Source: Chamaelirium japonicum
Lineage: Eukaryota > Streptophyta > Magnoliopsida > Liliales > Melanthiaceae
Reading direction: 5' to 3'
DNA: 64,000 nt
Assembly (NCBI GenBank): GCA_947650365.1
Contig: OX393549.1
Span: 87,255,703-87,319,702 of the forward strand
Numbering within the stretch: position 1 is the stretch's first letter; each line of letters starts with the position of its first letter. A program made the translations under genes and the position numbers. The notes under the pieces are model-generated. The model was not told the origin of the DNA and ran no database searches. It was given only the letters and a program-made list of their open reading frames with translations. Shown one piece after another: positions 3,215-61,290 of this stretch.

Positions 3215-3413
3215 CACGGTTTTAAAACTCGGTAAAACCTGGTCTAGTCGAACCAAGTTGACTCGAGTCGGACCGAGTTGCCTAAACTCGGCAAAATTTC
3301 GAGTCGAGTTATTGGGCCGAGTAGGAACGAGTTGGGATAAAACTCTGTCGAGTCAGACCGAGTTTGCTTGACTCGGCTGGATTTCAAGTCGAGTTTTGAG
3401 TTTTTGAGCACTG
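3215..3413. mobile_element. hAT-like MITE, GACTCGAG/ACTCGG motif family
   Basis: Terminal inverted repeats CACGGTTTTAAAACTCGG and (reverse complement of the right end) CAGTGCTCAAAAACTC are flanked by the perfect 8-bp direct repeat GTTTTTAG (3207-3214 and 3414-3421). The 199 bp interior is packed with GACTCG/CGAGTC motifs. The 8-bp duplication points to hAT-type transposition. It is inserted in an arm of the 1.9-5.4 kb foldback. Confidence 0.75.
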
Positions 3414-3574
3414 GTTTTTAGCAAAAGAGATACGACGGTAGGCGAAAGTGATACATTGGTGGATGATCTTTTACAAATTTAAGTAGTACCTCATCGACAG
3501 AAGATACGACCCTAGGGACAAAAGATACGACCACCATTGAGTGATGAATCTTGGTCTATAGATACGACCACATG

Positions 3575-4465
3575 CAATGTTTTAAAAGACATTTTGAGGC
3601 GTTTGTCCTCTTGAGAGTCGAGGCGTAAGCCTCAAATGTGGCTTTTTGGTTAAAGAAGTTTAAAAAATAAATAACCAGAATAATACTATTATTGAATGTG
3701 TAATAACAATTAAACTAGATATGTGTAATAAATCACAATGTGTTAATACCTTATATGACACGCTTGAGTACTACATCAAGCAATCTAACAAGTAACAACA
3801 AAATGGAAAGTCAAATTGCTCAAAAAAACTTCATTAATATTCAAGATAATAATTAAAGTAGCAAGTAACAACAAATAAAAATATACCAACATAGGACTAA
3901 CGAATGATAAACTACAAAAAATCATGGAAAAAACTAGTAGAAAAAGCAAGATCATGATCCATACCTCTAAACATGAAATAATCTTAATCTCTTACTTGTA
4001 GTCGGTAAACAATCCACAAAGAAGAAGAATGCAAGCTTCGGAATAAAAAATGAAAAAAAAATTTGAGCAATAGATCTTGATTTTGGATTTTGGGTTTTGG
4101 GGACAAAAGTGTTTCAAAACCTAAAGAAAATATCTAAAAGGGTTTAGGAGGTTTCAATTGGTGAAAAAAGGGCCCATGGGAGCAATTTATATATCAAACC
4201 CTTAGTCCCCCAACCAAAACTTGGTTTTAACCCTCCCTGCCCTATATTTCATGCCTGTAGCAAGAGGCGTACGCCTCAAACGCCTTGAGGCGCGCCTCGG
4301 ACAGAGGCATACGCCTCTTGCTGTAGAGGCGTAGGATTTTATATGTGGCTATGGAGGCATGTGCCTCGAGGCAGCACAAGATCGCCTCGCTTCAAGACGA
4401 GCCTCAAGGCAGTACAGGACTGCCTCGCCTCAAAGTGTACGCCTCGAACGTCTTTGTAAACATTA
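3575..4465. mobile_element. hAT-like element, GAGGCG/CGCCTC family
   Basis: The 891 bp element has ends CAATGTTTTAAAAGACAT and (reverse complement) TAATGTTTACAAAGACGT, flanked by perfect 8-bp duplications ACCACATG (3567-3574, 4466-4473). Both ends carry dense GAGGCG and CGCCTC motifs able to pair; the centre is AT-rich and noncoding. A relative lies at 5452-6266. Confidence 0.8.
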
Positions 4466-7854: not shown

Positions 7855-8300
7855 TTCAATTCTAGGCTGCAAACCATGACTTCAAATTTATTGTCATAGA
7901 TGCAAATATACTCATAAACTTCTATGGATGTACTTATGCATTTTATGTACCTTTAACAGCTATTTGCAAGCTCTTATTGCTGATGTATTCGTTACATTAT
8001 TGAATTCTCATGTCATTCATTTTGATGATGCCATTGTGAAAATTCGTTCTCTGATTTTCCGTTGTCTTTCACTTGTGCCTAGTTTACTGTACCCGACATC
8101 ATTATCTATAGCTGGCCTTTTTTGGGTTTTATGCTAACCCTTCTTTTTTTTTTCCCTCTCGTTTTCCCCACGTATTGCCATTTAGTAAGCTTTTGCATGT
8201 TATTAAGAAGTCTCTGCATGCCTTGCATGGACATTCATCAAATTCTCTCTTTTTGTTAGCATCACGAGCATTCACGGCTTAAATTAATAGCAGTTGTTAA
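7855..8300. repeat. Diverged direct repeat, copy B
   Basis: Aligns by eye with about 560-1150: shared TAGGCTGCA, ATGCAAATATACT, CCTTTAACAG, AGCTCTTATTGCTG-like and TAGTTTACTGTA segments in the same order. The copies lie about 7.3 kb apart and are clearly diverged. Confidence 0.45.
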
Positions 8301-10290: not shown

Positions 10291-12585
<2,295 letters not shown>

Positions 12586-20200: not shown

Positions 20201-23200
20201 ACAACAATGTTGAGTCCAAATAGATTACCATGTCAAGATGATCCAACTTTCTAGATATGAGCCAACATTCCTTTGTTGCATATAGATAACATAACCTTTT
20301 TCCAAAGTTTCAATGGATTATTTTAATATCAGGGTTTTGAATTTTGGTCAAAACCGATCCTTTTTGGCTGTTTTGGATCGATTTTGGCCGGAACCTATCA
20401 CGAAACCCTCTAGTTTTGGGTTTCTGACTGGTTTTCAAGGTAAAGGGGCATTTCAGTAGATAGCTTGCACGTCAACATATTTACATAAAAAACATTTAAG
20501 TGAAATACCCTCCATTTTGATTTAAAAAAACATTAAAAAATCCAAAATCCAAAGGAATCAAAATGCAAATATTCAGTTCCTATACAAAATCAGACTCAAC
20601 AATTTTTGCTAAACAAGAAAGTTCGGTGGAACAAAACCTCAATATTTTAGACTGGAAAAAATCTAAGAAAATCTGGAAGTATATGATCAACTTAAAACAC
20701 GAAAGACCGATAAAATATTTTGAATCTATAAAAATTTTCTTGCACAAGAACCCCTTTTCCTCTAGACTTACCAAAGATTCAGAATCATGATTTTTAGCTT
20801 TTTAACAAAAAGTCAAGGTAAACCGAAAACCCTACTCTTTCAAAAACAAAACCAATATGAAGTGGGTACCGGATGTTGCATAGCATCTGGCCCATAGGCA
20901 TTGGACAAGGAGCATCTTTTTTTGAAATTGAGACATTGAGCACATATATTCGTTATAATATATTCACCAGTTAAATGAAAGAAGCCATTTGGATAATCCG
21001 CCAGATTGGATGATCCTTACAGAAACAATGGTATAGCACCCTAACGTGACCATACCATACTAATTCTACCTATTGCAAAAAAAATGCCATGCACAATACA
21101 CTATCAATCTTGTATTTGACTTGTACATAAGTCAACAATACACCGATTCTTGATAAGGTCTCAAAAGGTAGTCAAATGTGTCATGGGTTCAATGTAAAGT
21201 TATAAATCTGTCAACCCTTGCGAGACAACTCAAAGAGAGAGGATCTAAGCTTATATCCTATCAATTAAAAATATAGGATTGTTCATTGTTTTTATTATGT
21301 TTTTCGGCCACTGAAATGACCTCTATAAATATCAGGTGTCATCTATGATTCTTATATAAACAATGATGCTCGATCCTCCTTGCCACAGCATGTGGTACTG
21401 AGTATTGGCATGATGTAGTGAGTCGACTTCCTAGTTTCATAGGACTAGTTATTGTAAATTTAATTTATTTTTAAGTTTTTATTAGCTATATATGTCTATT
21501 TTAGCAGTAGTTATGTTTGCAATTCTCGTTAATTGGACAAGTGCACATGAAATCTCTATGGTTCTTATATTAATTCTATTTTTTCTAGCTTATATTGATT
21601 TTCTAAATTTTTCTACTTTTTAAGAATTTTTTCTAAATTTTTTGAAATTTTAAAATAAACCGAGACTTAAACCGCCAAAATTAAAATCAGAACTATCGAA
21701 ACCGCTAATCCCGTCTGAAATTGCCTATCCCATCTTGGACTGAAACCGATCATGAAAACCTTGGTTAAGATCAATGAGGTATTTGGCAAGCATCCTCATT
21801 GTGAGTGTTGTTGTAGCTCGTGTGTCCTGAGCGTGAATTTTATGTATTAACATTAATAAAGATGACTTTGGTTATTGTTTTAATTAGAATACTACTTTGG
21901 TATATGTTAATACACATATAATAAAAGGACCCTAGGGAACAGTAGGCCACTGAGGCGCATAGTGGATCCATGCTTGGGAGACCCAGTGGACCAGTTCTGT
22001 GTAGACCTAGAACTAGTTCACAGCTTTGGTGATGCCGGTCGCTTCACCGAGAATAAGCTGTTGGTAGGTAGAGGATATGGTGAAGTCTTCACCACGGGAA
22101 CATGGGATTCCTATTCACCTGACCAAGAACGATGATCGTGTTGAACAATAACCAAGACGGTGCACAGTTCAGTGATTCAGACACTGGTGCATAAACCGTC
22201 TTATTACTATAGATAATCTGTCATTAACCCTAAGGGACGCTGGGCCAACCAGTTGTGTGGTGCTTTGATGTGCCAACGTGTGCGGACCTTCCATAGTCCA
22301 ATACCACGGTACATTGGGTTACCCGGCTGACGCTTGAGTGGCATGCAATCCCTACAGGCAAGGTTCGAAATTTCCATTTCGGTCAATATTTCGACCTCCT
22401 GGAAAATGGAAATATTTCGTGGAAATATTTCGACAGTGTGGAAATATTGTGATTTGATGGAAATGGTGGAAATATTGATTTTTTAATGGAATTTTTGAAT
22501 GAAACTCTGGATAATCATAAACTAAGTATAGATACACGTTTTAGAACACTTAGATAATATTTATACCCTATCTACGGGTGTAGAGCATCACAAAGTATGT
22601 ATTTTGCATTTGAGTCTGTGAGTCTTGTGCAGTCTTGTTTGAACCTGTTTTGATCTATGTTTTTTAAATGGTTTTTAATCTTTTTTGTGGAGAAAAATAT
22701 TTCCAAAATAAAGATTAGTTGATTGTTAAATTAATGCTTTAAACGATTTTGAAAATGGACTTAAAACAAGAAAGTTGTGCAAGTTTGAAATCGTACAAAA
22801 ATTATGCTGAAATGCAAAACACTGTTTTTTTACTAAGTCTGAAAAAATGAGTTTTTATAAAGAAAAGTTTTTATACATTCAAAATTTTCTTTGACGGACC
22901 ATGGTTTTCTAGATGTACTTGTAGTTCTACATCTTGTGGAATTTTTTGAGCTAAAAATGAGTTGATTTAACCACTTTTCTCAACATACAAATTTTATGAA
23001 AAACCGAAAAAACTGTTTTCTCCTACTAAAACTGAAAACCTACTTTTTGATTCACTTGGTTTTTGATTTTTTTGATATTTTTATTGAAATCAAATGGGGG
23101 GGTATTTGCTTATTTACATATAATAACATTTAAGTAAATGTCGTCTTAATCAAATGGGGGGGTATTTTTATTTTCTCCATTTACTTTAAGTTATTATATG

Positions 23201-26200
23201 TAAATAAGCTGCTGAAACCGAAACCCCCAGTCCCCTTTTATAACCAGTCAGTCCCAATATTTCGGTGCCAAAATCCCGAAATTTCCCGAAAAATCTCGAA
23301 ATTTCCCGAAATATCTCGAAATTTCCCGAAATATCTCGAAATTTCCACGAAATATCGCGATATTTCGTGCCGGCAAATATATCGTGCGAAATATCGCGAT
23401 ATATCACGATATTATCGTGATTTCTATTTCGTTTGATATCGCAGTAGACATTTCGTGTCGAGGTCTGGGAAAACCGAAATATTTCGCGATATTTCGCGAA
23501 ATATTTCGAGATTTTGTACCTTGCCTACAGGTTATCCGACGTCCAGTGTTGGATGGCTACGTTTTGATGAGTCAATCTGTCCACACAGTTAACCCAGGCC
23601 TGGTGGTTGTCAGTATGACTGACGACGTTCCGGATGCTAGGCATAGCACCAGAAGGTGTATGGTGTTATAAATGACAAGTCATCAAATCCTAGTCAGATG
23701 ATCGATCGGGATCTAACGGTGCTCCCCACCGCCCGAGTCGTATTATGGCACCAGTAATAGGAGGGACTAAGGATTATGAGAGTATAGTAGAGAACAAGGT
23801 TACGAGGGAGTAACATAAGTTTAGGATCACTAGAGTTTAACTCGCGTCGCACTCTGGATGGCTACGCGGGTTAATCGGATTAGGGCTGATTAACAGAACT
23901 TTCGATGTGTCACCGGAACAGTTAATCAGGGATCCGGTTGGAGCTAGAGATCCTGAACCCTGAAGGTTCCACCCTGTCGTTGCGTATAAGAATTGTTCCC
24001 CGACCTGGTTGGATACGTTGGATGCGAAGTAGCACGATGGAGCGCAAGCTCGGAGCCTAAGAACCTAATTCACATGTGTTAAGAACCGTAGGGGTATTTT
24101 GGTAAATGCTGAAATATGGCTCAAAACATATTGAATATGGATCCTAAAATAAGCGGAATAATTCCAGGAGCTCATAGGCGCTGACAGAACTCGATTCCGA
24201 GTAGCGCACCTCACTCAATCTCTCTTACAGTGTTTCACTTTTCGTGAAGGCCGTTTTCATCCAGGCTTCACGATAGACATGTGGAAACCCTAAAAACCGC
24301 CCCCCTCATCCCAATCACTAGGGGGCCAGCCTTAGCTTGCGTATGTGAGTTGGGGCCGACCCTATAAAGGGATTGGAGGGAGAGGGGGGCGGCCCTAGCT
24401 CTCCCTCTCCTGAAAAACCCAAACCTCCTCTCCCTCTGTCCCTCTTTGTGGTTACGGCCAAGGAAGAAAGAGGAAGAAGAAGGAAGAAGAAGGAGGAAGG
24501 AAGGAGAAGGAAGAAGAGAGAAAGAGAAGGAGGAGATCTCGCGGCTCGCCGTCGTCTTCGCAACGAATTCCTCTGTCGGCTCGTAGTCCTTGCACTCAGA
24601 GATAGAACTTCGAGAATTCCTCCATTCGCAAAGGACAAGGTGTCATCCGACAGCTTTCCTTGCGATTCACGTGCGGTTCATCATCGTTCCGTTCTCTTCG
24701 GATCATACATCCACAAGGTATGATGATTCTAAACACCTAACTAGATGCATGCATGTCTTCCGTAGATCGTAGTATGCCCCTAGGGTGTCCGCACATATGC
24801 TAAGATCATAGATTTGCATGTAGATTGTTTTGCAGAATTAATTGTAATGGAACATACACCATAGGATCTTCGGATCTACCTTTTGCTTCCGCTGCGACTC
24901 TGATAATGGGATTTAATTCCAACAAGTGCAACATTCGTTCTCATATATGTCATTACATAATTCTAACTTCCTGCCATAGAAGATCAATGACATTCCACAT
25001 ATTCTTTCTCCTCGTTTGATTTCTTGGCATTGAAATTTATCAAATTGGTCTAATACAGGTAGCCTTGTGGAGGAACTCTGCAAACCAAACCTCTTTATAA
25101 AATTTGAAATATAGTTACAAGGACGTATAAGGATCTATGTTGTGAATCTGAAAACCAATAATATATGAAGCTTAATCTTGTTCTTTATATCAAAATTCAA
25201 ACAAAAAACTACTTGGTTTCTAGCAAAAAAAACTAGATCATTGCTGACCAACAAAATGTATCAAATACAAAGGACCAAAATTATGAACTTACTCCAAATG
25301 ATTCGCAAATATGTATGACTTGATCCACAAAGTTTTGAAACAAAGGAATTGATTATCTCTGTTAATTTAAGATACCACCAGTATGAGGCATATCTAAAAT
25401 CAAATTTTGATTTCCTCAGCCTACATACTATGTGGTCTTTACTCTCTAGAGCTAGAACCTGGGCATATATTATATAGACCTCTTCCTCTAAATATCATTG
25501 AGAAAGGTCATTTTTTCATCCATCTAGTACTTTCTAGTTTAAAATGAGCTCTTAAGCCACATCTATCCAGAATAAGTACCAAGGAATTAGAACGTAGATC
25601 TCATTATAATCAATGACCTATTTTTGGGAAATCCCTTTTTGCCACAAGTTCAGATTTAGACCATTCTCAACCTTCCTTTGGAGTCGCTTTTCGTTATGGC
25701 CCCATTCTAGGAATGACATGCCATCTAAATAGTTCAAACATGATTCTCAATGTTTTCATTGGGCAGCCTTTTAGGTATTCTCGTAACTAGGGTCATGTTA
25801 GTATTCACACCAAGCAATCAAGCATAAAAGTTTATGCACCTTATAATATACTCTCTATCAAGAGAGCCTGCACACAATTTGTGCAGTTAAAACCTTGAAA
25901 GTCTCATGACTGGGTTCACTTTAATGATCGAACAATTCTCTTCAATACAAAGTGTTATTTACGATAAACTTAAAGGAATAAAAACTAGCCCATAAATTTG
26001 CACTCATTGGTCTTCTTAGTCAATCAGATCACAATCAAGGCTTTAGCAAGTTAATCGGTCTTTAAACGGTCAATTCGGTCCCTAATATCAAATGAAAACT
26101 CATAAAGGAGATGCAAACTATAACATGCCAGTACAAACATACTATTAGATGTCATGATCTGCAATTTTCAATAGTTTCTTAATGATTTATAGTCATGCAC

Positions 26201-29200: not shown

Positions 29201-30335
29201 CATTATAACGCTTCAATGAAATCCTGTAGCGGCATTGTATAGGCACTATTACCGAAATCCTGTAGTAGGTAGTGTATAGGTACTATTTACAGTATTATTA
29301 GAGGAGTAAATGGACAATAAAAAAAAGGTACACATGGGCTTACGGCTAAATGATCTTAAGCCAAGGGTTTATCGTAATACAGGGGTAGTTAAACTGGTCT
29401 TATGCTAAAAACCCCAATTTTTAATCTAACTTACTGAATTGATACTAGAGCAAGGTTCTAAAAAGCGCTAGGCGTCTCCTAGCGCCTAGGCGTTTTGCCT
29501 TTTTTTAATTTTTTAATTATTATTTTGATATTATAATATATATATTTATATGTTTAAAAATTAATATAAGTTCAAAATTATCCCAAACCATTATTTTAAA
29601 GAACAAGTATATAACCATAATTCAAGATTGAGTGATTAACAAGAACAAAAGCAAACATGATCCGCCTGGCCAGCCTCAGCCCGCCTGACTCGCCTATCCT
29701 GCTTGGCCAACCACAGCCCGCCTGGTCCGCCTGGCCAGCCTGAGCCCGCCTAAGCGGCCACCTTGCCCCGCCTAGACCGCCTAGGCGACCGTCATGCCCC
29801 GCCTGGGAGCTTGGACGCTTTTCTGGAGCGCCTAAGGCCTAGGCGAGGCTGTGGAGGGCCGCCTAGCGCCTAGGTGGCCGGCCGCCTGAGCCGTTTTTTA
29901 GAACACTGTACTAGAGACGTAAAATGGGCATTTAAGGCTAAACGAACTTAAGCCATGGGTTTATCAGAAGGGCCTTAGGCTAAAAACGGCTTATTAAAAT
30001 ACACAATGTCCGACGCAAAAAAAAATAAACTCCACATGAAATTCCAACATTCAAGAAATCCAATAAAAACCAGGGCTTTGCAGCTAAGGCATAACTATCA
30101 GAAACAGAAAGGGGGGACAATGTGCAGGATCGAAAGTGGAAATCGTGGGACGGTAATTTTCTTGTGGAGGTCAACAAGAATCAACAGGACAAGAAAAGAA
30201 CAGATTGAAGTGGAATGCCAACGATCCCGTGCAAAGGGTTTTAGGAATCTAAAAAAAAAAAATTTCTAAATGCCAACAAAAGAAGAATCTAAACAGCAAT
30301 AAAATATTTAAAAAATGTACTGATCTACGGTCACG

Positions 30336-41800: not shown

Positions 41801-43586
41801 AGATATGATTGCATGGATCATTCTAATTTCTAACTTAAATTATACTGACTGAAGTTGGGTAAGTCGATGAACACAAACTACAGCTGATTGCATAACAATT
41901 TAGTGGAATGTAGGCACACAATATATTTTCCTTTCATGTGAAGTATAAGGCAGTTTAGTGATGCTTATGTTCCTGGTGAGTGGTTGTTGCTGGAGTACCA
42001 GAGTAGGGTGGCACTGCCGCACTATACAAATTCCATTTTATTGAACTCAGCTTCATCTGTCAAGGCGAATATGCATTTTATCTTGGTATAGTTAGCAAAA
42101 CTAAATGCTTTCTTCTCTTGTTGTCTAAGTAGCATTTTTCATAAAGTATCTTGGTATGATTAACCAAACTAGATGCTCCAAACTAAATGATGGATATCAC
42201 TCCATCGAAAGAAACAAATCCAAACGTTTGGATTAATGCTGTGCTATTGCTGCCGGTGTACTATCTATGGTTGGGATTTCCTTATTCACGACATTGCGAC
42301 TCCCATAAACGTAAATGCAAACATGTGCGTTGAAGGATCCCTATCAATAGAAGAAATCAATGGCCAGTTGTAGCCTGTTACACGTTTGTGCTGGGATCCA
42401 CTTGGGCTTGGTTTTAGATAAAACAACAAATCCCATCTTGGCGAAAATTCGAGCCACTGCTATTATTAAGCCTTTAAGAAGAACTCTTAGGATATTGATC
42501 AAGCCAAAGCAATGGCCGAACAACTGGAACTGTATTAGCCATCATATCAGCCAGGGCCATCTCAACGTAAGCTATGCAGTCAAAATCAATAGTTGGCCAA
42601 GGGCCGACTAGGACTAGTCGGGACTAATTCGTGACTAGTCGGTCAAAACTTATTATAACCCCTTCCCCCTCTATAAACATATATGATACATGAACTAGCA
42701 TAAATGTCAATAAGTATATGATATTAGTCGGTCAATAACAATCAAGGTTTAAAATCACGGTATCGGTCGCGGTATCGGTCGGCCCCGAACCGGTATGTAC
42801 CGGTACCGGCCGATACGGACCGATACCGGTTGAGAAAAAAAACCTGAAAAAAACCCAAAAACCAAAAAAAAAAAATAAATTTAACCTGTCGGTACCAGTC
42901 CGTACCGGCCTATACCGGCCTGAACCGGCCGATACGGACCGGTACGTACCGGTACCGGCCGATACGGGCCAGGTATCGGGATCGGATGCAGTACCGGTCT
43001 CGAACCGGCCAAAACCGGTACGTACCGGTATCGGCCGAGATTTAAAACCCTGATAACAATGCATTCCTTCATACTTCACAGTATGGGTATAAATATATAA
43101 GTAACATAACACAGTTGTATTGACTTCATAACCATGTCAGAAGACTCAGAACTAAGAATTCATCACAATATTTGTTTGCTGAAGTTTAATCTGTGAACAA
43201 TCCTAATTTTGATTATAGGGTTATATGGATATCAACAAATAAACAATAATTATTTGTCTATGTTTTTATCTCAGATTCTCAACAGATGATTATAGGGAAG
43301 ACTGAAGAGTCATAGTTGGGACTCAAGACTTCGTGGCAATTCAAAAAAATCCAAACAAAATTACTTGTAGAGACTACTTGCAAAAAAAAAAAAAAATTGC
43401 TTATAGAATGCTGCCTGGGGACTAGTCCTAATCGCTAGTCAGGATTCTACCCAGCTATGAAAGAATCGGAATTAGTCGGTCGGCAAAATGCCGCCTAGGG
43501 GACTAGTCACCGACTAGTTTCGATTTTGATAGCATAGAACATACGTTGAGGCCTAAGGCAAAACTTTAAACGAGGCCTACTTACTT

Positions 43587-43664
<78 letters not shown>

Positions 43665-46600
43665 CCTTTAGGCTATGCACTTCACACAATCACAAATTGA
43701 GAGGCTTCAATGTAGTTTTAGAGAGACAAAAGGGATTGGGGTTGCACATGTTTCTTTTATAGCACAACTATACACAGACCACCAGTTTCTTGAGAGAGAA
43801 CTCAAAGAAGAGAAGAGGAACAACCACTCAACGGATTCATGATTCAGAGTCATTGATCCAGCCCCTATGTGCTCCCTTAGATGAGAGCTCACTCCAACCC
43901 AAATAACCAGAGAGAAATCAAAACCCACCCCTATCCAGGGTCGGCTCGATACAAGTCGAGGCCTAAGGCGAAAGCACAAAATAAGTTTTTTTGATACTTA
44001 ATTATAAATAATATTAATTAATTTGCTATATAGTAGAAAGTTTTTATTTTTTATGGGGCCTTAGTGTTTTATTTTATATCGGGTCGTAGTCTATTTAAGT
44101 GGGTTTGGGGCCATGTTTTCATACGAGACCTTAGGCTATTCAAATGGTTTTGGGCTTTGAAGTCCTTTTTGTTACATGGGGCCTAAGGCGATCGCTTTAA
44201 TGGCCTTATGGTTGAACCGGCCCTGATATCAGCCGTACTATCTATTATGTAGTGCCAACTTTCTTCAAAATAACCACATCGTCACTGATAATATTCCGGA
44301 ACAAAGTGAAACTGAACGTCGATAAGGTTGGTCCATACACGATGAACTTGAATCTTCGGCAAGTGAATGCTGTTCTGACTATCAAAGTAGATATCAACAT
44401 GCCATTTCGAGCCGAAGTGTCTTCTTCCCAGCCTCAGTAACGCTGTAACAGTCATATACTGTGCCTCAGTCCTAGACAAAGCAATCGGGTTGTAACATCG
44501 ACCTCCAACTGATCGGGTTGTAACATCTCTACTCTTTTACTGAACTGATAAGTGCACTCCCCTTTCGAAGTATGCATTCTCTACCTATTGCTAGTTGTGC
44601 TCCATTTATGAGAAAGAGAGCATTTAATGCAGTTCTATATGTTGCATTAACTCCATTTGAATGATCCACTCTAACCCTCTCGTTTAAGAAATGCGCTCTA
44701 TTTCTTTCACACTTTAAAACACTATTTGGAGAGAGGTTGTAACAGAGATGTGACTAATAAAAATGAAATGTATTTAAAATCCTATAACTGAACTAATAAA
44801 TGACATGTAATTGCAAGTGCCTACTACAAGTAGGCAGTAGCCTTGAATTGAAGGTGAAAGCTTATCTTCAATGCAAAGGATGACATTTACTTGATTTTGT
44901 AGCCATGTCAAGACACATTTCCTTCACAATACTAGTAACCTTGTGAGTGAATGCTTCTGTTCAAAGCAAACAATGACATTTGCTCAATTTTCTAGTCTTA
45001 AGCATATAGTTTTCATGTATAAAGTTTGTTTTATTAATTCAATTTCAGGTAACCTTCGTTTCCAGTGAACCTCTGCCCCCAGAGTTCTCACATGTGCTGA
45101 AGTTTGGAGGAACTACATATAACCTCTATAGCCACAGCTTTCTTCATCTTGGCCAGGTGATCCTTTCCAACCAATTAAACATTGAGGACTATTATTTCTG
45201 CATATGCTATTAGACTATTACTCCCATTAGATCCATCATTGTTCAATGTCTTCTTAATTTCTTCCTTCGTGGGGCGCGAGGGCTAAGAGGGTGGGTCGGG
45301 GGGTGTTGGGCATTGGAAGAAAAATCTATTGGTAAATTACTTTAACCTGGTTGATATTAAGTTGTGTAGTAGCAACAGCTACAGTAGTCCAGTAATAATT
45401 TCGACGAATAAATGGAGGTACATGACCCCAATTACCTATGCTAGAATCGCACTAGTGTACCTTGCTAAGTTAGAGAAGTCCTCGATCAAAACAACTGAAG
45501 TGGAATGGGCCTCATAAAACACTCTTAAGTCGAACAACTAACTTCTTATCCTTATGATTGCCTTGCAGTGTTTATCTATACCTTTCTTCTGACGTTTGAT
45601 GTATGTAATTGAAGATGCACTTGAACCTTGTAAATCATTCTCATAACTTCAATCGTGTGTAATTTAATCTGTTCATCTTCACAATATATTTAATGAGGAG
45701 GTGTGGTTTTTTATCTTTTAGGGTCTCAAATAAAATGAATTGTATTTCACAACGGGGCGGGCAATGGCCCAAATATATAGAAAATGTGGTGAGTCCACCA
45801 TGTACAAAAGAAAATAGAAAACCTGATCAAGTCTATACAGATATGCATCTACCATTCTCTATTGTTAAGGCTCATAATATTCAGTATGTGCCATGCTCTT
45901 GCAATCCTTGTTAATTGCTTCATCTGCAAATTAACTTGATATATGCAATTCTAGGCTAGTATGCAGGTTAGGAGATGAGCAATCAAATATTCCAATAATA
46001 AAGTAATAATATTCAAATATAAAAAATTATCCTACTCAAATTTTAGTTAGAATCTTCGCTTGTCAACAAGTAACGATTAAATAACTGAAATGGACGTATC
46101 TAGTACCAAACGATTCAAAGTATGAAACTATGAATCTATTATTATCAATGAAGGGCTCTAATGTGCAACATATCAAATAAATAAACAAGGGATGAAGTAC
46201 TGATGAAATAGACAAACCGATCAAGGCGAACAATGATTCAATAGGCTTGAAAAGGGGACCAGGCGAGCCCGTGACGACAACAAGATTGGCAGTCGGTCGG
46301 TGCACTGGGTGGTATCGCTAGGGTGTACCGGCTGGTGGTTCCGGTTAGAGCATCGGTCAAGGGGGGAAGATGGTGATGTGTTGTTTGGATGGGGATGACA
46401 ATGTCGATGTTGCTTTACCCTCGATGTTTACCCGCATAAGAAAAAGCGAAGATTTAGATCAAACTTCGATAGAACAAGGGAGATGTGGCTTTTGCCTATG
46501 ATTTATCTCCCTTACGATCATCTACCATGAACGCTTGAAGCACCATGTTTTAGATTTTCATTCATAAAACATAACATAGCCTCTACAATGATGCTAGTAG

Positions 46601-48770
46601 GGATTTATATAACACCCCCTAATAATCCTAATGACTCCACTAAAAAAAGGCCAAAGTGTCTTTATATGACATGTTTACATGTGGGAAGAAATTAGTCTAA
46701 TAAATAGGATGAAAATGACTGAATAAATTTCAAAATACTAATAGAAAAGCAAACTGGGCCCTACTGGTCATGGGTCAACATGAACATGATAAGACAATTA
46801 GCATGACATTAAGAAAAACCAAGCTTCTAAAAAGCGCTAGTCGGGCGGTGGGGGACTGCCTAGCGCCTAGGCGGTGCCTAGGCGTTTTGACTATTTTTAA
46901 TTATTATTTTGATATTTTATATCACATATGTTTTAAAATTACTATAAATTCAAGATTATCCCAACCATTATTTTAAAGAACAAGTATCAGTTACATAAAT
47001 ATAAATTCAAGACTAACAAGAGCAAAAACAAGCATGTTATTATGAGATAATATGCATGATTTTAGTACAATTCAAACCATAAATTCGACCACCTAGGCGG
47101 CGCCTAGGCGTTTTGACTATTTTTAATTATTTTAATTATTATTTTAATATTATATGTAACACATATGTTTTAAAATTACTATCAATTCAAGATTATTCTA
47201 ACCATTATTTTAAAGAACGAATATCATTTACATAAATATAAATTCAAGATTAATAAGAACAAAAACAAGCATGATATTATGAGATAATATGCATGATTTT
47301 AGTAAAATTCAAACCATAATTTAAGATTACTAACAACAAAAGGAAACATGATATATCGATAAAGAATCCAAGATTCTAGTACAATCCAAAATAAAAAGTC
47401 ACAAAATAGTGAAATAGATCATCATTTCTCCTATAGGCTACAGTACTAGACTCCTAGTACTCTTCTTCGCCATATCCCTCCCAGACTCTCTCTTCATTAG
47501 ATTTAAATTCCACCCCATTATCACACTCTTCGTCTGTCTCCTCATCCGATACAAAATATTCTTCGTGAAATTCTCCAACTTCACGGGGTGAAGAGCTACC
47601 ACTGAAAAACACTCTGTAGCTAGATTTTACAAGTGTTGCACTCTTACTAACAAGGGATGTTGGAATGATCCAGATGACCTATCAATGAGAAGATCAAATT
47701 ATTAGTTATTCGTTATTGAATAATTGTTCAAAAGCTAAAAGTTTTCTTTTTTGTATTGAATAATATAATTGATAATGTACAACAAATCTTAACTACTTAA
47801 CGTGTCGGAAATAATCTTAACTGTTTAAAGTTGCTAACCCAGAGTAGCCATCGAGACTCATATTTGCATCGTAAGATAGTTGAATGTAAACCTAGCTTGA
47901 ACAACTACATTAAATTAAGCCCTACATCTTATATTCAGAGTTCTGTATGGTTGGATGTTTGACACCGTTGTAAGTTTGTTTGATGACGACCTTATATGTT
48001 TGTTAGAGAAAACCTGTGAAGCATGGATACCTCGGAGGCTCCCATGGCAGTGTCGGACACGAACACGGCCCGAACACTATACCTTTTTTGCCCGAACACG
48101 GCCTGGACACATGAGTGTAATTCAACATGAAGCGTTTGCCCCAAGGTTTAAAGGAAGATCCCATGATCCCTGGTTTCGATCAGTCCAAAGGAGGAGAGAC
48201 GAGAAAAGAAAAAAAAACATACATGCCACTACTTTCGTTGCTCGATCATCGTCGTTGCCAGATCGTCGTCTCCTTCGCTAATTGTTGCCTCATCGGCCCC
48301 GTCCCCGTCCCCCTCCTGGCCGCTCTTCGTCTCTATGTTTGAGAAGAGCTCGATATTCAACCCGAGGGTTTTAAGCCGAATGGTCAACAAGAATGGCGTG
48401 GTATCCAACACATCGTCCCTTTACCTGCTAGCCATGGCTGATGTGATTCACAGATCGAGGCTGGGCCAATAGACGACTGTGATCCTATAGGCGTAGATTC
48501 TCTGAGGTTAGATAGGTTGAAGTTAAAACTGAATCACAACCGTTCTTTTGCATGCCATTTGGTGCTCAATGCGATTCGTCGGTCGGACTGGGTGTAACAG
48601 ATGATTGTGACCCAGTTTTGGCTTTAACCTACTTGATCCCCCGTTCTCTTCTCTCGTATGGTGGCACGCGGGCGGCAAGGAAGAGGATTGGAGAGGCGAG
48701 ACCCTCCGCCTAGTTTCACCCTGAAGCTCATCGCTTGTAGTTGCCTTAAGACCCTCTGCCAGACAAGATC

Positions 48771-48810
<40 letters not shown>

Positions 48811-51800
48811 TCGTATCCTTGCTGTGTCCGTGTCCTACTTTTTTAGGATTTGCTGTGTCCCGTGTCCATACTTTATAGGAGAAAACTCATATTCAGTAAG
48901 ACTTTCATCCAATATTTTGACCAAAAATATCTTATCTAAGGGCACATTTGGTTCCTATGCAATTGAGTTGTTTTTCCAATTGGACATGTGCACTCAATTT
49001 AAAGTTGTTTGGTTAAAGGAGTGTGACCTATGCAAACAGATGCACATGTTCACTATTTATGTATAAAAAGTTGTGCAATTGAAAACATACCTGTTTAGGT
49101 GGAACTATTTGCATAGGCCACATCTTCAAATAGATACACGTTCAACAACTACACGAGAACCAAACATGCCCATACTTAGTGGTGCAACTCAGGTCGGTTG
49201 GTTTGAGTTTGACCCAACCCGAACCCAAACTAAACTACTTTTGTTCTACCATTTCGTAACCATAACCAACCCAACTTGGGAATAGATCCGAACCAAGTTG
49301 ACCATCACAAGGTTGAGTTGGATTTGGTTGGTTCTCAGGTTGAGAGCAGGGATTAGATTAGATAAAAATAACAGAGCAAAGTTGGTTACATAAGGAGGCT
49401 TGGTTAAAAATTTCTATGGAAAAAACTTTCTAGTCGTAATTACTTAAAAAATTAAGGCCAGGTTTGTATTCTCCTGCAGTAAAGTATATTTAGGTAAAAT
49501 TTTAAAATTATCAAAATGTGAATAGTTCGAGTCCTATTGCAATTCATGTACAACTTTCACCCAAGCAATATGGATGCCTCTGGTTTGTAGAATTATCATC
49601 CATCTGCATTCAATTCCTTGTGGGAAATACAAACAAGGCCTAGAAGGAAAGATGATTCTTTAATATGACCTAAAAAAATGAGGGTAATGTAGACAACGGA
49701 TTGTCGGAAACCCGGGATGAGATACCAACATGAAGAGTAATAACAATAGGTGTTCTTCATCCATTGGCATGGTTAATATTGCTGTAAATGGGTTGCAGTG
49801 TAGAGCGAACGAATAAAAGAAATCGGTCTTTACTCAAAATTGTCTATGACATTGTGCTACAATTTCTTCATTAAATATAGCAAAATAAAAGCATCATCTA
49901 CAAAGATGAATGTAACATTCCATTACAAATACCAAAGATAAAAAAATTCCAAATTGCTCTTTTTTTTTTCCTATTCTATTTGATCAAATTGGAGTCATGG
50001 CTATTTTACCATGCTTGCTTGGATGCATAATTAGACAAATGATAAATGTGTGAAATTCCATGGTGTCATTGTATTTAAGAAAAAGGATTTGATGATTAAT
50101 TTATAATATGGCTCCTCAACTGTCAAACCTGCTTTATATGGTAAAAATTGATGGAAAATGATATAAGGATGCATCAAATCTCTTTAACTATATTATAATG
50201 TTTGGGCTATGTGGAAGATACAACAATTCAATGAGAGATCAGTCTCTAAGTTGGAGATCACTGAGTTGTGTGGAGCTTGATGGTTGGTAGCATGTCGGAG
50301 GAGATTCCAAAGGGCCTTTTCAGATGGCGTTAAGAGCATGAAGGGCTTGAGCTTGGTGCGCCAGAGGTGTCCTAGGGATTAAGAGGGACGATTACCCCAG
50401 ACCCGATTTTTTTTTCAATTGATGTGACTTGCATTTCAAAGGATGAAGAATCGGCGACCGAAGGTGAACGTTTTTTCGGCATCCCTACGATTTTGGGAGT
50501 ATTTTCGATATTATTTTTCTTGGTTCTATGTAAACTCTAACTGTAGGGGGTATATATATGGCTATCCATCGGGACCTGTAAATCTGTAATCTCTGTATCG
50601 TCTTTTCTTTTTCGCTTCGAAGCATAGTGGAATCATTGTGAGGGGTGGAAGTACCATAGATATGAGGGAATCAGATGCAGAACCGACTTCTGAGGTGGTG
50701 TTTTTCTTTCCTGGTAAATCTTTGTGTTTCTTGTTTGCTTATGTGCTTGATTTTTTTTTTCTAGATTGCCGTTTTGTGTCATGGGGGGAATTCTGGTACC
50801 CTTCAGTGCCATCATGGCATGTGCGATATGGTGGGTTTCAGACTACCAGGTAGACCTGTTAATGACCATATTTTTAAATTCGATGATCCGATAATGGTCT
50901 AAATTCGGTAACCCATTTACTTAACAAATCGGATATGGATCGAGGCCAATTCGATCCGTTAAGAACCCTATCCAACAATCTATAACACACAATATATTAT
51001 CTTTTGTTAATCGTTAGATTATATTGCTTTAGATCTAAGGATCTTGATAGGGACATCACTATAGCCCCATCGAGTTTTAGAGTGTACCGGTGCAGGCGAC
51101 AGAGGGCCACAACCCTCTCTCTTTGGCTCGGGGACTAGCCCGAGTCAATGTTCTAAAAAGCGCTAGACGCTAGTCGGGCGGTGGGGGACCTTCTGGCGCC
51201 TAGGCGTTTTTTTTTTATTTTTTATTTTGATATTATATATAATATATATATTTTAAAACTTACTATAAATTCAAGATTATCCTAAATATTATTTTAAAGA
51301 GCATGTATCATTTATACTATGCTATCAAAGTCGGGACTAGTCGGCGACTAGTCCCCGACTAGTCCCTGGGCGGTATTTTGCCGACCGATTAATTTTGATT
51401 CCGTCATTGCTGGGCGGAATCCCGACTAGTCCCCGACTAACGATTGCCGACTAGTCCCCAGGTAGCATTCTGCAAGCAAATTATTTTTTTGAAAGGAGTT
51501 CGCGCAAACAATTTTGTTTGGATTTTTTACATTGGCTCAAAGTCTTGAGTCGCAAGACTCACAACTATGGCTCTTCCCTGTAATCATCTGTTGAGCACCT
51601 GAGAATCTCAGATAAAAACATAGACAAATAATTAGTTTATTTGTTGATATCCATATAGCCCTATAATCAAAATTGGGGTTGTTCACTGATTAAACATCAT
51701 CAAACAAATATTGTGATGAATTCTTAGTTCTGAGTCTTTTGACATGGGCATGAAGCCAATACAACTGTGTTATGTTAGACTATTACATATGTATTTATAC

Positions 51801-54800
51801 CCATGCTGTGAAGTGTGAAGGTATGTATTGTTAATTTGTTATTAACCGACTAATATCATATACTTATTGACATTTATGCTAGTTCATATATCATATATGT
51901 TTAGGGAGGGGGGGAGGGGTTAGAATAAGTTTTGGCCGACTAGTCCCGAATTAGTCCCGACTAGTCGCGACTAGTCCTAGTCGGCCAGTTTAGGGAGGGG
52001 GGGAGGGGTTAGAATAAGTTTTGGCCGACTAGTCCCGAATTAGTCCCGACTAGTCGCGACTAGTCCTAGTCGGCCAAGGGCCGACTAGGGCCGACTACCG
52101 ACTTTGACTGCATAACATTTATATAATCATAAATTCAAGATTAACAAGAACAAAAGTAAGCATGATATTATCTCAGATAATATCATAATATCCATAATTT
52201 TAGTACATTCCAAATCATAAATTTATGATTATCAATAATAGAATAACATCCTATGTTATCAAAGTCGGGACTAGTCGGCGACTAGTCCCTGGGCGGCATT
52301 TTGCCGACCGATTAATTTCGATTCCGTCATTGCTGGGCGGAATCCCGACTAGTCCCCGACTAGACCCGACTAGTCCCCGACTAACGACTGCCGACTAGTC
52401 CCCAGGCAGCATTCTGCAAGCAAATTTTTTTTTTTTAAAGGAGTCTTTGCAAGCAATTTTGTTTGGATTTTTTTACATTGGCTCAGTCTTGAGTCGCAAG
52501 ACTCACAACTATGGCTCTTCCCTGTAATCATATGTTGAGCACCTGAGAATCTCAGATAAAAACATAGACAAATAATTAGTTTATTTGTTGATATCCATAT
52601 AACTCTATAATCAAAATTAGGGTTGTTCACTGATTAAACATCATCAAACAAATATTGTGATGAATTCTTAGTTCTGAGTCTTTTGACTTGGGCATAAATC
52701 TAATACAACTGTGTTCTGTTAGACTGTTACTTATATTTATACCTATGCTGTGAAGTGTGAAGGTATGTATTGTTATTAACCGACTAATATCATATACTTA
52801 TTGACATCTATGCTAGTTCATATATCATATATGTTTAGGGAGGGGGGGAGGGGTTAGAATAAGTTTTGGCTGACTAGCCCCGAATTAGTCTCGACTAGTC
52901 CTAGTCGGCCCTTGGCCGACTAGGGCCGACTATCGACTTTGACTGCATAGATAACATCTATACACGTTCTAGTGCCTAGGCGGCCGCCTAGGACCTCCTA
53001 GGCGGCCATCAAACCCTGCCTAGGACCTCCTAGGCGGCCGTCAAACCTCGCCTAGAGGCCTGGGCCGTTTTCTGTACCGCCTAGGATTAGGCTAGGCGGT
53101 GGGGAACCTTCTAGCGCCTAGGCGGCCGCGTAGGCCGCTTTTTAGAACACTGGCCCAAGTCAACTGGCCTTTATCTATTTATTAGTATTCTTTTATTTTC
53201 AGCATGTTGCGCGTGGTTGTTTCGTACTTGTTTAGTCCCACATTGCTTGTGGAGACCTTTGTAGTGCACCTGGACCTCTGTATAAAGGACACACAACCCC
53301 TTTTATTAAGCAGACTATAAATGAAAGAATTTGCTTTATGCATAAATTTCTCCTGAGAAAGGATGATTAGGGCTAGAAGCCCAGAGGTGAGAAGCCTCAG
53401 GCTTTTGGCGCGAAGCCGGGCCGGTTTCCCACCCCAATCCATATACCTTTCTTTCTTTCCTTTCCTTTTCTCTTTCTCTCTCTCTCTCTCTCTCTTTCTT
53501 TTTCTCTGTTTCGGTGTGCATGCACGTGACCAGCTGAGCCCCCACGTCCTGCCTCCGTGTGGCTCCGTGACCACCCGATGCCCCTCGGCCAGCCCGACCC
53601 GCCGAACCAGCCAACCGGTCACACCTGCAAGCCGCACCCGTTGCAGGCCTACCTGACAGCCATGACCCCCTTGCAAGCTTGCCGGCATCCGTCGGCTACT
53701 TGCCGACCTGCCAGGCTATTGCTGGCCCCTCGTTAGCCCCCCCGAAGCCCCGCTGGTCACTTACCTGCCTACCAGACCGTCGTCGGCCCACGCCAGCCTG
53801 CCGAAGTCATCGGCCAACCGCTAGCCCCTTGACAACTGATCGGATCTCTGTCGCCTTGACTTGCGCATCGTCGACCCCGGGTTCTTGTTCCGACGCATGA
53901 TTTACACCGACTTAGGTTCCGACCCCCTACGCAAGCATGACAACCATTATGCGAATCATCTTTCTTTGCTCACTTTCTTATCTGTGGATGATAGGCAAAC
54001 CATTTTTAAGCTATATTCTGCTTTCCTAAAACTAAAAAAGTAGCATAGAGCCTTTCTTTGCTCATCATAAGTTTTTGGATTGGAATAGGAACCCTACCAT
54101 TATATTAGCCTGTGCCGTTGTTAATTCAACCTGTTGAGCCTGTTTAATCTTACTTGAAATCCTCATATTAGCCAATTGAATCTGCATTAGTAAACGACAA
54201 TCCCTATTTCTTCGGGAAGTCCCTACTTTCCAAATGATAAGTGGTTTTAATATTTTAAACTGGTTAATCTGTAGGACTGCAATTTTAAGCCTGATATCAC
54301 ATGATCAATGTATCTAGATCCATGAACCCGAAAAATCAATCATTTTATTATTGATATTTTTAATTTTCAACATAATTAATAATCTCCGAATATTGCATCA
54401 TTTAGTGGGTCAGTCCTACATCAGCCCTTGATGGGTCAATATAAAAAGATTCTCCTGATCTCCTAATCAGGACTTAGATTTTATTCTGGCCCTGCCGAGT
54501 CCCGAGTCTGGAATTGACTGCTCTTCTACGGATCGACGCTCAACGATATCACAACCGTCCTATGTTGACCTGTTAATGGATATGGTTTGGATTTTTCAAT
54601 CCGATGATCCGAATGGTCCGAATCTGATAACACATTTACTAAACGGATCGGACTTGGATATAGCCTAATCCGATTCGTTGACATGTCTAGTACCAGTGCT
54701 CGAGTTGGAGGCGCCTGTGCCGTCAGACAGGGGTGGGAGGGGTGTAGCCCTTTCTTTTAGAGTTCGGGGGACAAGGCCCCAACCCAAATATTTATGCACT

Positions 54801-56740: not shown

Positions 56741-56744
56741 ACCA

Positions 56745-56840
56745 TAACCATAACGATCGAGCCTTGTCCCATTTACTTGGGGTCTACTTTACGAATTCTT
56801 ATTTGCCAATCATTTATGGTGAGGGCTATCTCTTTTCAAT
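56745..56840. mobile_element. Au-SINE-like 3' segment
   Basis: GCCTTGTCCCATTTACTTGG followed by GGTCTACTTTACGAATTC resembles the conserved 3' region of plant Au SINEs (and LINE partners). The family resemblance is recalled, not searched. Confidence 0.45.
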
Positions 56841-57276: not shown

Positions 57277-57592
57277 TAGGGGTGGCAGCGGTGCGGTCTA
57301 AAACCAAAAACCGTGGTAAATAGCACCAGATGGTGCGGTTTTGGTTTGCCAAAATATAAAATCGTCGCGGTGAGGTGCGGTTTCGGTTTTGGCGTAGCGG
57401 TGCAGTTTCAGTTTTGACCAAAACCGCATAGAACCGAACCGTTTAGGCCATTATAATGATAAACCACGGTGCACTGCACCACACCACACCACACCGTATG
57501 GTGTGGTTTTGGTTTTACATAATGGTACACTGTCGCGGTGCGGTTTCGGTTTTGCCCAAAACCGCACCGAAACCACACCGTTGCCATCCCTA
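57277..57592. mobile_element. hAT MITE, TAGGGGTGGCA ends
   Basis: 316 bp with ends TAGGGGTGGCAGCGGTGCGG and (reverse complement) TAGGGATGGCAACGGTGTGG, flanked by perfect 8-bp duplications ATAATGAA (57269-57276, 57593-57600). The interior repeats GCGGTTTCGGTTTTG and its complement. TAGGG...GGCA termini are well known for plant hAT elements. Confidence 0.9.
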
Positions 57593-57600
57593 ATAATGAA

Positions 57601-59382
57601 TGACATTGTATGCACTTGCAGTGCCTATGCATCAACCGTAGGATTGGACAAAGGAATCAAGCGGAATTTTATGGTTGTATAAATGTCAAGAAAAGGTAGT
57701 TGATATGAGAGAACACATGGAAGAAGGCTTTGAAGATATTGGTGTGATGGGTATGCAATATTTCTATTTGCTAAGACTTACGATAATCTAGTATTAGCAA
57801 ATACTTCTCTTACGATAGACCTAATCATTTGGTGATCTAAGGAGTGCATCAAGCTTGTCACTTAATTTAATAACCTATGTTTATGAAGGTTGAAGCTTAA
57901 GGCCTCAATTTTGGACTCAATGAGGCAATTTGTTAAGTTGTTAATTTACTTTTGTATAGAAAGGCTTACAAAGAAGATGAGAAAGTAAATGGAAAAGGGA
58001 AGATTGGATATGAGTTGTGCTTGGACTTGGTTACTATGGGTAAGGATGACAACAAAACAAGAAGTCAGTGGAAAGGAGAGACGTCAAAGCATGTAGCATA
58101 GTAGCAAACCATGTAGCCTCCAAAGTACATCTCTGCAAATGCCGACGAAGTTAGAATGCTGAAGTGCACTACCAATAAGGGAAAGAAGATAAAACACCAC
58201 CATATGTGCAAGTGCCACAAACTACGAAGGCGTCTAAAAACTCTTAATATACCGTAGATGGCACTTAGGACATAAAGCACAACAAAAAAGGCAGAGAAGT
58301 GTGCCAATGAGAAGCAAAGGGAAACATACATTGTTGTAGGCCCTGCTATGCAAGATACCTCTAACTATTGAAGTAGCATTTAATAATGCATAGAGACATG
58401 TAGGTCTCCCCATCGATAAGCATGATAAATGAAAGCATACACGCATTCCGGTAAGGAGCGGTAGCAAGAATGTATTGAAGGAAACTCAAAACCAATTAAG
58501 AGGAAGCTATAAACACTTAAAGTGTAGCCCATTATATAAACTAAATGCCCTAGAATAGCGAAACTTGGGCTCTTGATCAAAGTTAGAATCTACAAAGAAA
58601 TGATCTAAACCAAAGGGAGTATCAAGATGATCAAGATTTTAAAGGCTAGCAAACATAGGAGATTGATGCATGTTGAAAGTAGGGAGCACAAACATGAAAA
58701 ATTACCAAAAGGAATGATATAAATGATGCAATTCGGGCAGGTTTCAAGTCTATTTGCCTCAAAATAAAAAAATAGTCACCATGTACCGAGCCAAATTAGG
58801 CCAACTACAACAACATTGCCCAGAAAGTAGATCCTAAATGGACGTCTCAAACATAAATAAACTTAAAATAGGTATAATGGTAATTGACTTGATAGTTAAG
58901 TGATTTCCATACCAACATGCAAGGGAGCGACCAAGGTTTTAGATTTCGGTTTCATGTTTGGATTCGGTACAATCCGAAACCGAAATTTTGATCGAAATGC
59001 TGTAAAAAATTTGAAACAGTTAAAAGGAGAGTGGGGGGGGGGAGGTTGATGTTATTTTTTTAAATTTAATCATTTTATAGTTGTGCATGCATATTTACAT
59101 GAATTGTTTTAAGAGAACACACCAAACATATAGTAAGTTTGCATGAACCATGATAACTAAGGTGGAATACTAGTAAGTTGGAAAAAAAAAATGATAATCA
59201 TCATGTATTGATTTATAGATATTTATATTGTTTTCATCACGAAAGAAATTGAAATCAATCATATTGGCTTGTCCAAATAATCTTTTCTTCGCTCATCCAA
59301 CTAAACTCATCATCATCAGCCCGTGGCACACCACTGTAACCTTCGGTTGACATCTACGCTGGCACCCAGCCTCACCTAGCTC
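57601..59382. other. Mostly unassigned; one orphan TIR-element left end
   Basis: At 58932 CAAGGTTTTAGATTTCGG and following CGAAACCGAAAT text look like the left end of an element related to 22359, without a recognisable right end. A G run lies near 59032. Open frames of 60-90 codons match no family I know. Confidence 0.35.
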
Positions 59383-61290
59383 CTCTGTAGTCAAAGCGTC
59401 CCCTAGGCGGGTGCCTAGGTGTTTTGGACCCCTGGGCACCTAGGCGACCCCCTAGACGGGTTGTTTTCCTTAGGCGGCCGTCTAGGTGGCCTGCTTGGTG
59501 CCTGGTTGCCTAAGACCTAGGCGCCTGGGTAGTTTTTCATTTGATCTAATTTGGGATTTTTCCAAAATTAAGTTGAATTAACTCATAATTGAGTTGCATT
59601 AACTTAAAATTGAGTTGTATTAACTCAAATTGAGTTGAATAAGCTCAAAATTAAATTAAATTAACTCAAATTGACTTCATAAGAATTTGGGGTTTTTTCA
59701 AAACTGAGTTGAATTAACACAAATTGAGTTGAATTAACTTAAAATTGTGGTTTTTTCAAAACTGAGTTGAAGTAATTGAAAATAGAGTTGAATTAACACA
59801 AAATTGAGTTGAATTAACTCAAATTGAGTTGCATTAAGTCAAATTGAATTGAATAAACCCAAAATTGAGTTGAATTAGCTCAAATTCTTATGATGAGTTC
59901 ATAAGAATTTGGATTTTTTTTCAAAATTGAGTTGAATTAACTCAAAAATGAGTTGAATTAACTCAAATTCTGATGACGAGTTCATAAGAAATTGGGAGAG
60001 TTTCAAAACTAAGTTGAATTAACTCAAAATTGAGTTGCATTAACTTAAATTGAGTTGAATAAACTCAAAATTGAGTTTAACTAACTCATATTCTTATGAT
60101 CGGTTCATAAGAATTTTGGGGTTTTCAAAATTGAGTTGAATTAACTCAAAATTGAGTAAAATTAACTCAAATTAAGTAGAATTGACTCAAATTGTGTTGA
60201 GTTAACTCAAATTTTTATGATGGGTCAGTGTTGTCAAGGCAACGAGGCGAGCTTGAGGTACAAGGTACCGCTGGAACTTGAGGCGCAAGGCGCAAATAAG
60301 GCGCACGCCTTAGTGTGTAAGACGCAAATATATATACATATATATATATAATTAATAATAATTGTAAAAAAATCTAAAAATCATAAAAAATTATATTTCA
60401 TAAAAAATAGAGAAATATAATCATTATTCAATTAAATCAACTCAATAAAGGCGTACAATACTTATAACTCATAACTAGTGGCCATCAAATGAACAATTTG
60501 AGTGAGAATAATAATTCACAAGTTATTTGCAACATGCCAACATCATATTCATAAGTTAAATACATACAATACTCATAAGTGATAACTAATAAATGAGAAC
60601 TCATAAACAATGTTGAATAACGAAATGAAAGAGTTGGGCACTAAAGAGAGTTGGGCTCTTTTATTCAAACCAAGAAGAATCAAAATAAAAAAACCAAAAC
60701 CCAAAAAGAAAACCAAAAACTGAAAATAAACCGGAAAAAAACCAAAATAAACCAAAATCACAAAAAAAAAACCAAAACTTGAAGACCAAAATCCAAAATG
60801 CATCAAGGCGCGCGCCTCGCCATAATGCGCCTGAGGCGCATACCTATTCCTCGCCTTGAGGCGCGCGCCTTACTGCGCCTTGACAACACTGTGATGGGTT
60901 GATAAGAAAAAATTTGAGTTGAATTAACTCAAAATTGAGTTGAATTAAATCTAAACTTAAAGCCTAAACCCTCATATTTTATTTTATTTTATTTGTTTGA
61001 TTTTTTTAGGAACTTTTAGATTTTTTTTTATTTTTTCTTCAATTTTTTCCTCTTTTATTTTCTGATTTAGTTTATGGGTACGGTATTCCTATACTTTCTA
61101 GATAATTTGACTTTTAGGTGGTGAAAATTATAATCAACATGCTACTAGATTACGAAAATCATGTATATACATATTTATACTATATATAAAAATATTTAAT
61201 AATTACTCGCCGCCTAGGCACTGCCTTGGCGCCTCTTTGCCTTGACAGGTAAAAAAATCTAGGCGCCGCCTAGCCGCCTTGACTACATTG
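59383..61290. mobile_element. TIR element with CTAGGCGG ends and GAGTTGAATTAACTC repeats
   Basis: Ends CTCTGTAGTCAAAGCG and (reverse complement) CAATGTAGTCAAGGCGGC, flanked by perfect 8-bp duplications CCTAGCTC (59375-59382, 61291-61298). Subterminal GCCTAGG motifs; most of the interior (about 59570-60217 and 60910-60955) is degenerate copies of AAAATTGAGTTGAATTAACT. It carries the later 60226-60891 insertion. Confidence 0.82.
60226..60891. mobile_element. hAT-like element, CAGTGTTGTCAAGGC ends, nested
   Basis: 666 bp with ends CAGTGTTGTCAAGGCAACG and (reverse complement) CAGTGTTGTCAAGGCGCAG, flanked by perfect 8-bp duplications TGATGGGT (60218-60225, 60892-60899). Subterminal GAGGCGC and GCGCGCCTC motifs; AT-rich noncoding centre. 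Confidence 0.88.

Follow-up and report, generated by a model that had tools for sequence, protein, structure and literature searches.

Putative non-autonomous hAT elements and their subterminal words in a 64-kb stretch of the Chamaelirium japonicum genome

Subterminal words are short motifs repeated behind the tips of a transposon, and their reading by hAT transposases is known biology. Among plant hAT elements, the tips of Ac are CAGGG, and the miniature inverted-repeat transposable element (MITE)-like elements named hATpin in 2005 (Moreno-Vazquez, Ning and Meyers) are said to form stable secondary structures. The present analysis concerns 14 elements in a 64,000-bp stretch of the Chamaelirium japonicum genome (G000:C1:87255703-87319702, hereafter the window), which are new examples of such word-bearing elements. 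Judged from sequence, they are best explained as hAT transposons that are non-autonomous (MITE-like), belong to several families and carry words that are putative BED sites, with a probability of about 0.8.

The closest described systems are hATpin, Ac/Ds, Hermes and Tag1. Ac/Ds of maize has 8-bp target-site duplications (TSDs), gene-less partners and a subterminal hexamer, AAACGG, that is bound cooperatively by the transposase (PMC3260210). The window element starting at 57277 (elements are named by their first position) resembles it in its TAGGG tip and AAACCG words; however, the words here are not AAACGG, and those behind TAGG tips range from GCCC to ACCGA types. In Hermes of the house fly, a BED pair binds short subterminal repeats cooperatively on a quasi-palindrome, and the side chains contacting bases belong to residues 66, 67 and 70 plus Q64 (PMC10368747). 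The transposase of one relative found here (L017) matched Hermes chains (E 2e-13 at best), whereas the Hermes site is AAGT/AAGC, the clade is another one, and a single BED-word pair is described. The Tag1 transposase of Arabidopsis binds subterminal AAACCC and TGACCC, and that of Herves binds the short subterminal motif CGATTCAT (PMC3143072). Tol2 is described as having a perfect palindrome.

Ends and duplications of the window elements

An earlier note on this DNA had listed 14 element starts with 8-bp flanking duplications. All of the starts were left ends, and a right end with an 8-bp duplication was found for each of them; 13 duplications were exact, and that of 51146-53152 had one mismatch, as noted. 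The elements ranged from 199 to 2,007 bp in length (Table 1), and between 7 and 12 bases matched in their 12-bp tips, 3215 being the lowest and marginal at 7. A strict scan, requiring an exact 8-bp duplication and tips agreeing at least at 9 of 14 bases, was performed on the window and 20 fetched stretches of ~10 kb (263,810 bp altogether), the stretches having been selected for hAT transposases. The tip patterns were taken from elements already seen, and identical patterns were used in the controls, where the duplication was displaced by six offsets. The scan gave 26 matches, against 1, 0, 0, 1, 0 and 0 in the controls, which supports the listed duplications as real. It found nine of the 14 listed elements again, the other five missing its tighter filters, and two of the 26 matches look accidental (L010:6589-7686 and window 52988-53121). 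A looser generic scan over duplications of 5-11 bp was dominated by tandem repeats and gave no distinct peak at 8 bp; the displaced-duplication control was therefore used in its place.

The flanking duplications also recurred in other copies, as the note had anticipated: three window families were found outside the window with different duplications. The element at L023:9316-9971 has CTATG tips, CGACTA words and the TSD GTTAGCAT, and is related to 51317-52115. A second copy of the 29451-29908 family lies at L027:2148-2641 (CAGTGTTCTAAAA tip, CTAGGC words, TSD AGAATTAG), and a second copy of the 26461-27198 family at L028:7951-8817 (CTATGAARCAC tip, GGACAC words, TSD ATACTATC). Within the window, 51146-53152 holds both 51317-52115 and 52251-52950, and 59383-61290 holds 60226-60891, each with its own duplication. 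Long terminal repeat, CACTA, Mutator and Tc1 origins were set aside on duplication length and tips.

More CARKG-like tips were seen at 5452, 20330, 46820, 58932 and 185 (minus strand), where no end pair with a duplication was supported; the CAGGGTTTTGAATTTTGG copy at 20330 had neither a supported right end nor a duplication in the window. Positions 46820-47320 hold a CCTAGGCG-family fragment that has a single tip and an internal 237-bp duplication and lacks a supported right end. Of the 26 open frames of at least 120 aa in the window, 10 were scanned against Pfam; none had a hAT domain, and the matches were to an amino-acid transporter and to part of GDA1/CD39.

Subterminal words and their spacing

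The earlier note had assumed one shared terminus style. By our grouping there were four: CARKGTT(Y)TAAA-like (3215, 3575, 22359, 29451, 42743, 51146), CTATG or similar with GTCAA(A/G) or ATCAAA (51317, 52251, 59383, 60226), CTATGAARCAC-like (26461, 28482, 48014), and TAGGG (57277 only). Compared by tip only, 3575 resembles Tag1, whose tip is CAATGTTTTC. The word CCTAGGCG was found behind two styles, CARTGTTCTAAAA (29451, 51146) and CTCTGTAGTCAAA (59383), and a word is therefore not bound to a single tip style.

Word abundance was measured in 22 elements, 12 of them in the window and 10 at the loci (three families being counted twice), as the count of the commonest 6-mer of their terminal stretches, low complexity excluded. 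Counts ranged from 5 to 31 copies and, compared with 88 stretches outside elements (median 4, 95% quantile 5, maximum 10), exceeded the control 95% quantile in 21 of 22 elements and the control maximum in 14. When each listed element was compared with its own shuffles, the 99% level was exceeded in eight of 14 (3575, 22359, 26461, 29451, 51146, 51317, 52251 and 57277). Family words are crowded at both ends of the elements, a finding qualified by the shuffle comparison. The elements make up 9,288 of the 64,000 window bases, yet they contain 19 of 28 CCTAGGCG, 19 of 22 ACTAGTCG and 14 of 17 ATATTTCG copies; ACTCGG was not enriched inside them (6 of 23 window copies).

In complete, transposase-bearing relatives the words were confined to the ends. 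Within the terminal 300 bp of L013, L018 and L019, AACCGA occurred at 27-53 per kb, against 0-0.2 in the interior; GCCCGA and AAGCCC reached 17-23 per kb at the ends against 0, and CCGACC 10-27 against 0.4-0.6. Both ends of these relatives share words, but order and orientation vary. The words of Ac-type elements are spaced on a lattice near 5.2 bp, and this period persists when pairs less than 7 bp apart are dropped, being reached by 2 of 500 jittered sets (element-weighted). A 10.5-bp period was discarded, as 195 of 500 jittered sets reached the observed value, and the 5.2-bp period alone stands.

These observations bear on the proposal that the words arose as by-products when ends slipped or grew in tandem and have no role in recognition, the half-turn spacing being the trace of a short tandem unit. 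In several ends Tandem Repeats Finder reported arrays of 10, 11, 20 and 21 bp, part of the 5-6 bp spacing stems from words that overlap, for example AACCGAACCGA, and the 5.25-bp signal was negative in six of 22 elements (3575, 26461, 42743, L013, L028:7951 and L012) and near zero in three more. Slippage would nonetheless have to account for words that are missing from interiors, shared by the two ends in varied arrangement and kept with the same tip in copies elsewhere, as well as for the period that outlasts the removal of close pairs. We consider this origin unlikely.

Transposase-bearing relatives and the proposed reading of words

A Dimer_Tnp_hAT search was performed on the assembly (1.52 Gb, 3,253 contigs); 150 of 1,885 candidates were scored and all 150 matched. 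In 12 of the 20 fetched stretches, 13 elements with exact 8-bp duplications enclose a transposase. They are TAGG-tipped in L009, L010 (two, nested), L011, L013, L014, L015, L017, L018, L019 and L020, and CAGGSCCGGCCC-tipped in L026 and L027. Ends were not found for the other eight fetched loci (L012, L016, L021-L025 and the gene of L028). Among ten locus frames submitted to Pfam, the TAGG set gave Dimer_Tnp_hAT and a hAT-like RNase-H domain, several with zf-BED, and the other set gave DUF4371. The two L010 elements (370-8077 and 3122-6971) belong to one Ac-type family, one inside the other, with their own exact 8-bp duplications and the first 160 bases identical at both ends.

Element 57277 fits the Ac type in its TAGG/CAGGG-type tip and its A/C-rich hexamers, and its relatives have hAT-like RNase-H transposases. 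A transposase-bearing relative is L002, a 3.2-kb locus of which one end was seen, with a minus-strand transposase 40% identical to that of L010 over 378 aa. Its end at position 704 agrees with the right end of 57277 (57592) at 57 of 61 bases by our count, after which the two diverge. The assignment of the 14 elements to hAT, as proposed in the note, is supported by duplication length, tips, subterminal words and the recurrence of three families, and for 57277 also by the end similarity to this relative.

Similar tips may precede quite different words. The gene-less L028:2880-3390 has TAGGGNTGGCAA in common with L001, L007 and L010, which each lie next to a transposase of their own, and behind it the words diverge (CGGGTC, CGTGTC and GGCCCA/AAGCCC in L001, L007 and L010, ACCCGA in L028:2880-3390); in more distant families the tip is conserved only over about the first 8 bases. 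The combination of a conserved tip start and a variable word is demonstrated, with transposases in hand, for the TAGG (Ac-type) style alone. The same pattern, in line with the earlier idea of word diversification among related transposases, may extend to the CARKGTTYTAAAA and CTATG styles. Alternatively, a single transposase could move every family through a common tip, the words being irrelevant to specificity. Tips are indeed similar inside each style, but the styles differ among families, and Ac-type families with similar tips have separate transposases, 39-50% identical, and differing word sets, so that this alternative appears quite unlikely. The differing words probably reflect each family's transposase reading its own word.

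As for the movers of the other styles, a DUF659 genome search scored 150 of 2,239 candidates, all of these 150 being strong matches, with open frames up to 686 aa. Our guess is that transposases of this type move the CARKG families. Many of the DUF659 matches had equal scores and 597-aa frames, suggesting a recent expansion of this transposase lineage.

In the mechanism that we favour, hAT transposases encoded at other loci would mobilise the 14 elements in trans. The word would be the duplex binding site of the N-terminal BED zinc finger, its many copies per end would load a transposase multimer, and the tip would be the cutting site. The tip start would therefore be held, while the word and the BED helix could drift together.

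Self-complementarity is limited to some of the words, four of which have palindromic cores (CCTAGG, ACTAGT, ACCGGT and AATATT). As single strands, 18 of 20 ends (10 of 14 elements tested) folded better than shuffles (z <= -2), a likeness to the description of hATpin; the window differs in having several word families in one genome, several of them non-palindromic. A hairpin model, in which palindromic words were amplified and an extruded hairpin is recognised instead of the duplex word, seems very unlikely, as 57277 and 26461 fold equally well with non-palindromic words, 28482 does not fold, inverted words of any kind yield hairpin potential, the hairpin of Hermes and Kat1 forms on the flanking DNA instead of the transposon end (PMC4763223), and the BED domains of Hermes bind to DNA in duplex form (PMC10368747). 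Hairpins at each end, which the note had suggested, are consequently not supported as a common scheme. The pairing of Hermes BED domains on a quasi-palindrome and the perfect palindrome of Tol2 explain palindromes without hairpins, and the self-complementary words would be paired BED half-sites on duplex DNA.

The note had proposed a search for autonomous copies and a comparison of BED domain with word. Complete Ac-type elements allowed this comparison, and the BED contact positions were found to have changed among them. BED stretches were aligned on their zinc ligands, and the Hermes numbering assigned through this alignment is our inference. The equivalents of positions 66, 67 and 70 were T-H-R in L009, L015 and L010 (GCCC-rich words), S-T-K in L011, L017 and L020 (CCGACC and AACCGA words), S-N-S in L013 and L014 (AACCGA and ATCCAA words), and T-S-N in L018 (AACCGA word). 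L017 differs from L011 at position 64, and L019, near L018, has two substitutions in this stretch, one at a zinc-binding histidine. L009 and L010 have the same helix and word type in transposases that are 42% identical, L009 being closer to L011 (46%). It is possible, if still doubtful, that this genome holds a natural hAT library in which the tip start is frozen, the subterminal word and the BED contact residues change together, and words occupy a lattice with a step of roughly half a turn of the helix.

Several points weigh against these readings. The transposase link was obtained for 57277 and for none of the other 13 elements, and the commonest 6-mer did not exceed the own-shuffle 99% level in 3215, 28482, 42743, 48014, 59383 and 60226, a shortfall to which A/T runs contribute by inflating the shuffled counts. 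L013 and L018 share AACCGA despite differing at all three BED positions, and L011 carries AACCGA x12 beside CCGACC x11; any BED-word code is therefore loose. With this count L011 also stands less apart in its words from L013 and L018, which makes a joint change of word and helix less probable. Five independent families are too few to settle such a code.

What may be new is the occurrence, in one genome, of sister families with a kept tip start, a changing word and a changing BED helix. To our knowledge, the choice of DNA by BED residues has been seen structurally only for Hermes. Among open-access papers we found none on such sister families, which does not prove absence, and a search of this literature with five motifs returned only unrelated bacterial work; the families themselves may already be catalogued. 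Sibling families with a word repeated at their own ends would permit a direct comparison of word and helix, and would show how a gene-less family comes to depend on a single transposase. If the proposal is true, a code for the recognition of DNA by BED domains would emerge from the hundreds of transposase copies, and sister families would be seen to have evolved both palindromic (paired BED) and non-palindromic reading. The BED domains of hAT transposases have also been co-opted as host regulators (PMC10368747).

Element coordinates and neighbouring repeats

Table 1. Positions, tips, duplications and words of the hAT-like elements in the window (tip agreement in matching bases).
Feature	Position	Strand	Tips	Agreement	TSD	Word
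hAT-like element	3215..3413	+	CACGGTTTTAAAA/CAGTGCTCAAAA	7/12	GTTTTTAG, exact	ACTCGG, non-palindromic; AACTCG x7, not above own shuffles
hAT-like element	3575..4465	+	CAATGTTTTAAAA	9/12	ACCACATG, exact	GAGGCGTA, above shuffles
hAT-like element	22359..23523	+	CAAGGTTCGAAA	10/12	CCTACAGG, exact	ATATTTCG, above shuffles
hAT-like element	26461..27198	+	CTATGAARCAC	10/12	GTTTATGC, exact	GGACACGG, non-palindromic
hAT-like element	28482..28912	+	TTGTGAAGCACG/CTATGAACCACA	8/12	ACTATAGC, exact	GGGTACG, weak; ends without hairpin excess
hAT-like element	29451..29908	+	CAAGGTTCTAAAA/CAGTGTTCTAAAA	10/12	TACTAGAG, exact	CCTAGGCG
Possible further hAT element (single copy; encloses 42743-43052)	42552..44225	+	CAGGGCC	11/14	ATATCAGC, exact	
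hAT-like element	42743..43052	+	CAAGGTTTAAAATC/CAGGGTTTTAAATC	10/12	ATAACAAT, exact	ACCGGTACCGG; CCGGTA x15, exceeds control stretches, not own shuffles
hAT-like element, decayed	48014..48878	+	CTGTGAAGCATG/CTATAAAGTATG	9/12	GAGAAAAC, exact	GGACACGG-type, weakest, 6 copies
hAT-like element, host of two	51146..53152	+	CARTGTTCTAAAA	11/12	GCCCGAGT/GCCCAAGT, one mismatch	CCTAGGCG
Nested hAT-like element	51317..52115	+	CTATGCTATCAAA	9/12	CATTTATA, exact	GACTAGTCGG
Nested hAT-like element	52251..52950	+	CTATGTTATCAAA	9/12	ATAACATC, exact	GACTAGTCGG
Ac-type non-autonomous element	57277..57592	+	TAGGGGTGGCA/TAGGGATGGCA	10/12	ATAATGAA, exact	AAACCG and CGGTGCGG
hAT-like element, host of one	59383..61290	+	CTCTGTAGTCAAA/CAATGTAGTCAA	10/12	CCTAGCTC, exact	CCTAGGCG
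Nested hAT-like element	60226..60891	+	CAGTGTTGTCAAGG at each end	12/12	TGATGGGT, exact	AGGCGC

Tandem repeats were also observed in the window. An array of a ~21-bp unit (AAATTGAGTTGAATTAACTC) at 59565-60213 takes up a large part of the interior of the 59383-61290 element. A 448-bp tandem array is present twice, at 31447-32675 and 34466-35694, ~3 kb apart, and represents a segmental duplication. A further array, of AACTCGGCCCACACACAACGG units with periods of 32, 66 and 96 bp, is located at 62094-62360.

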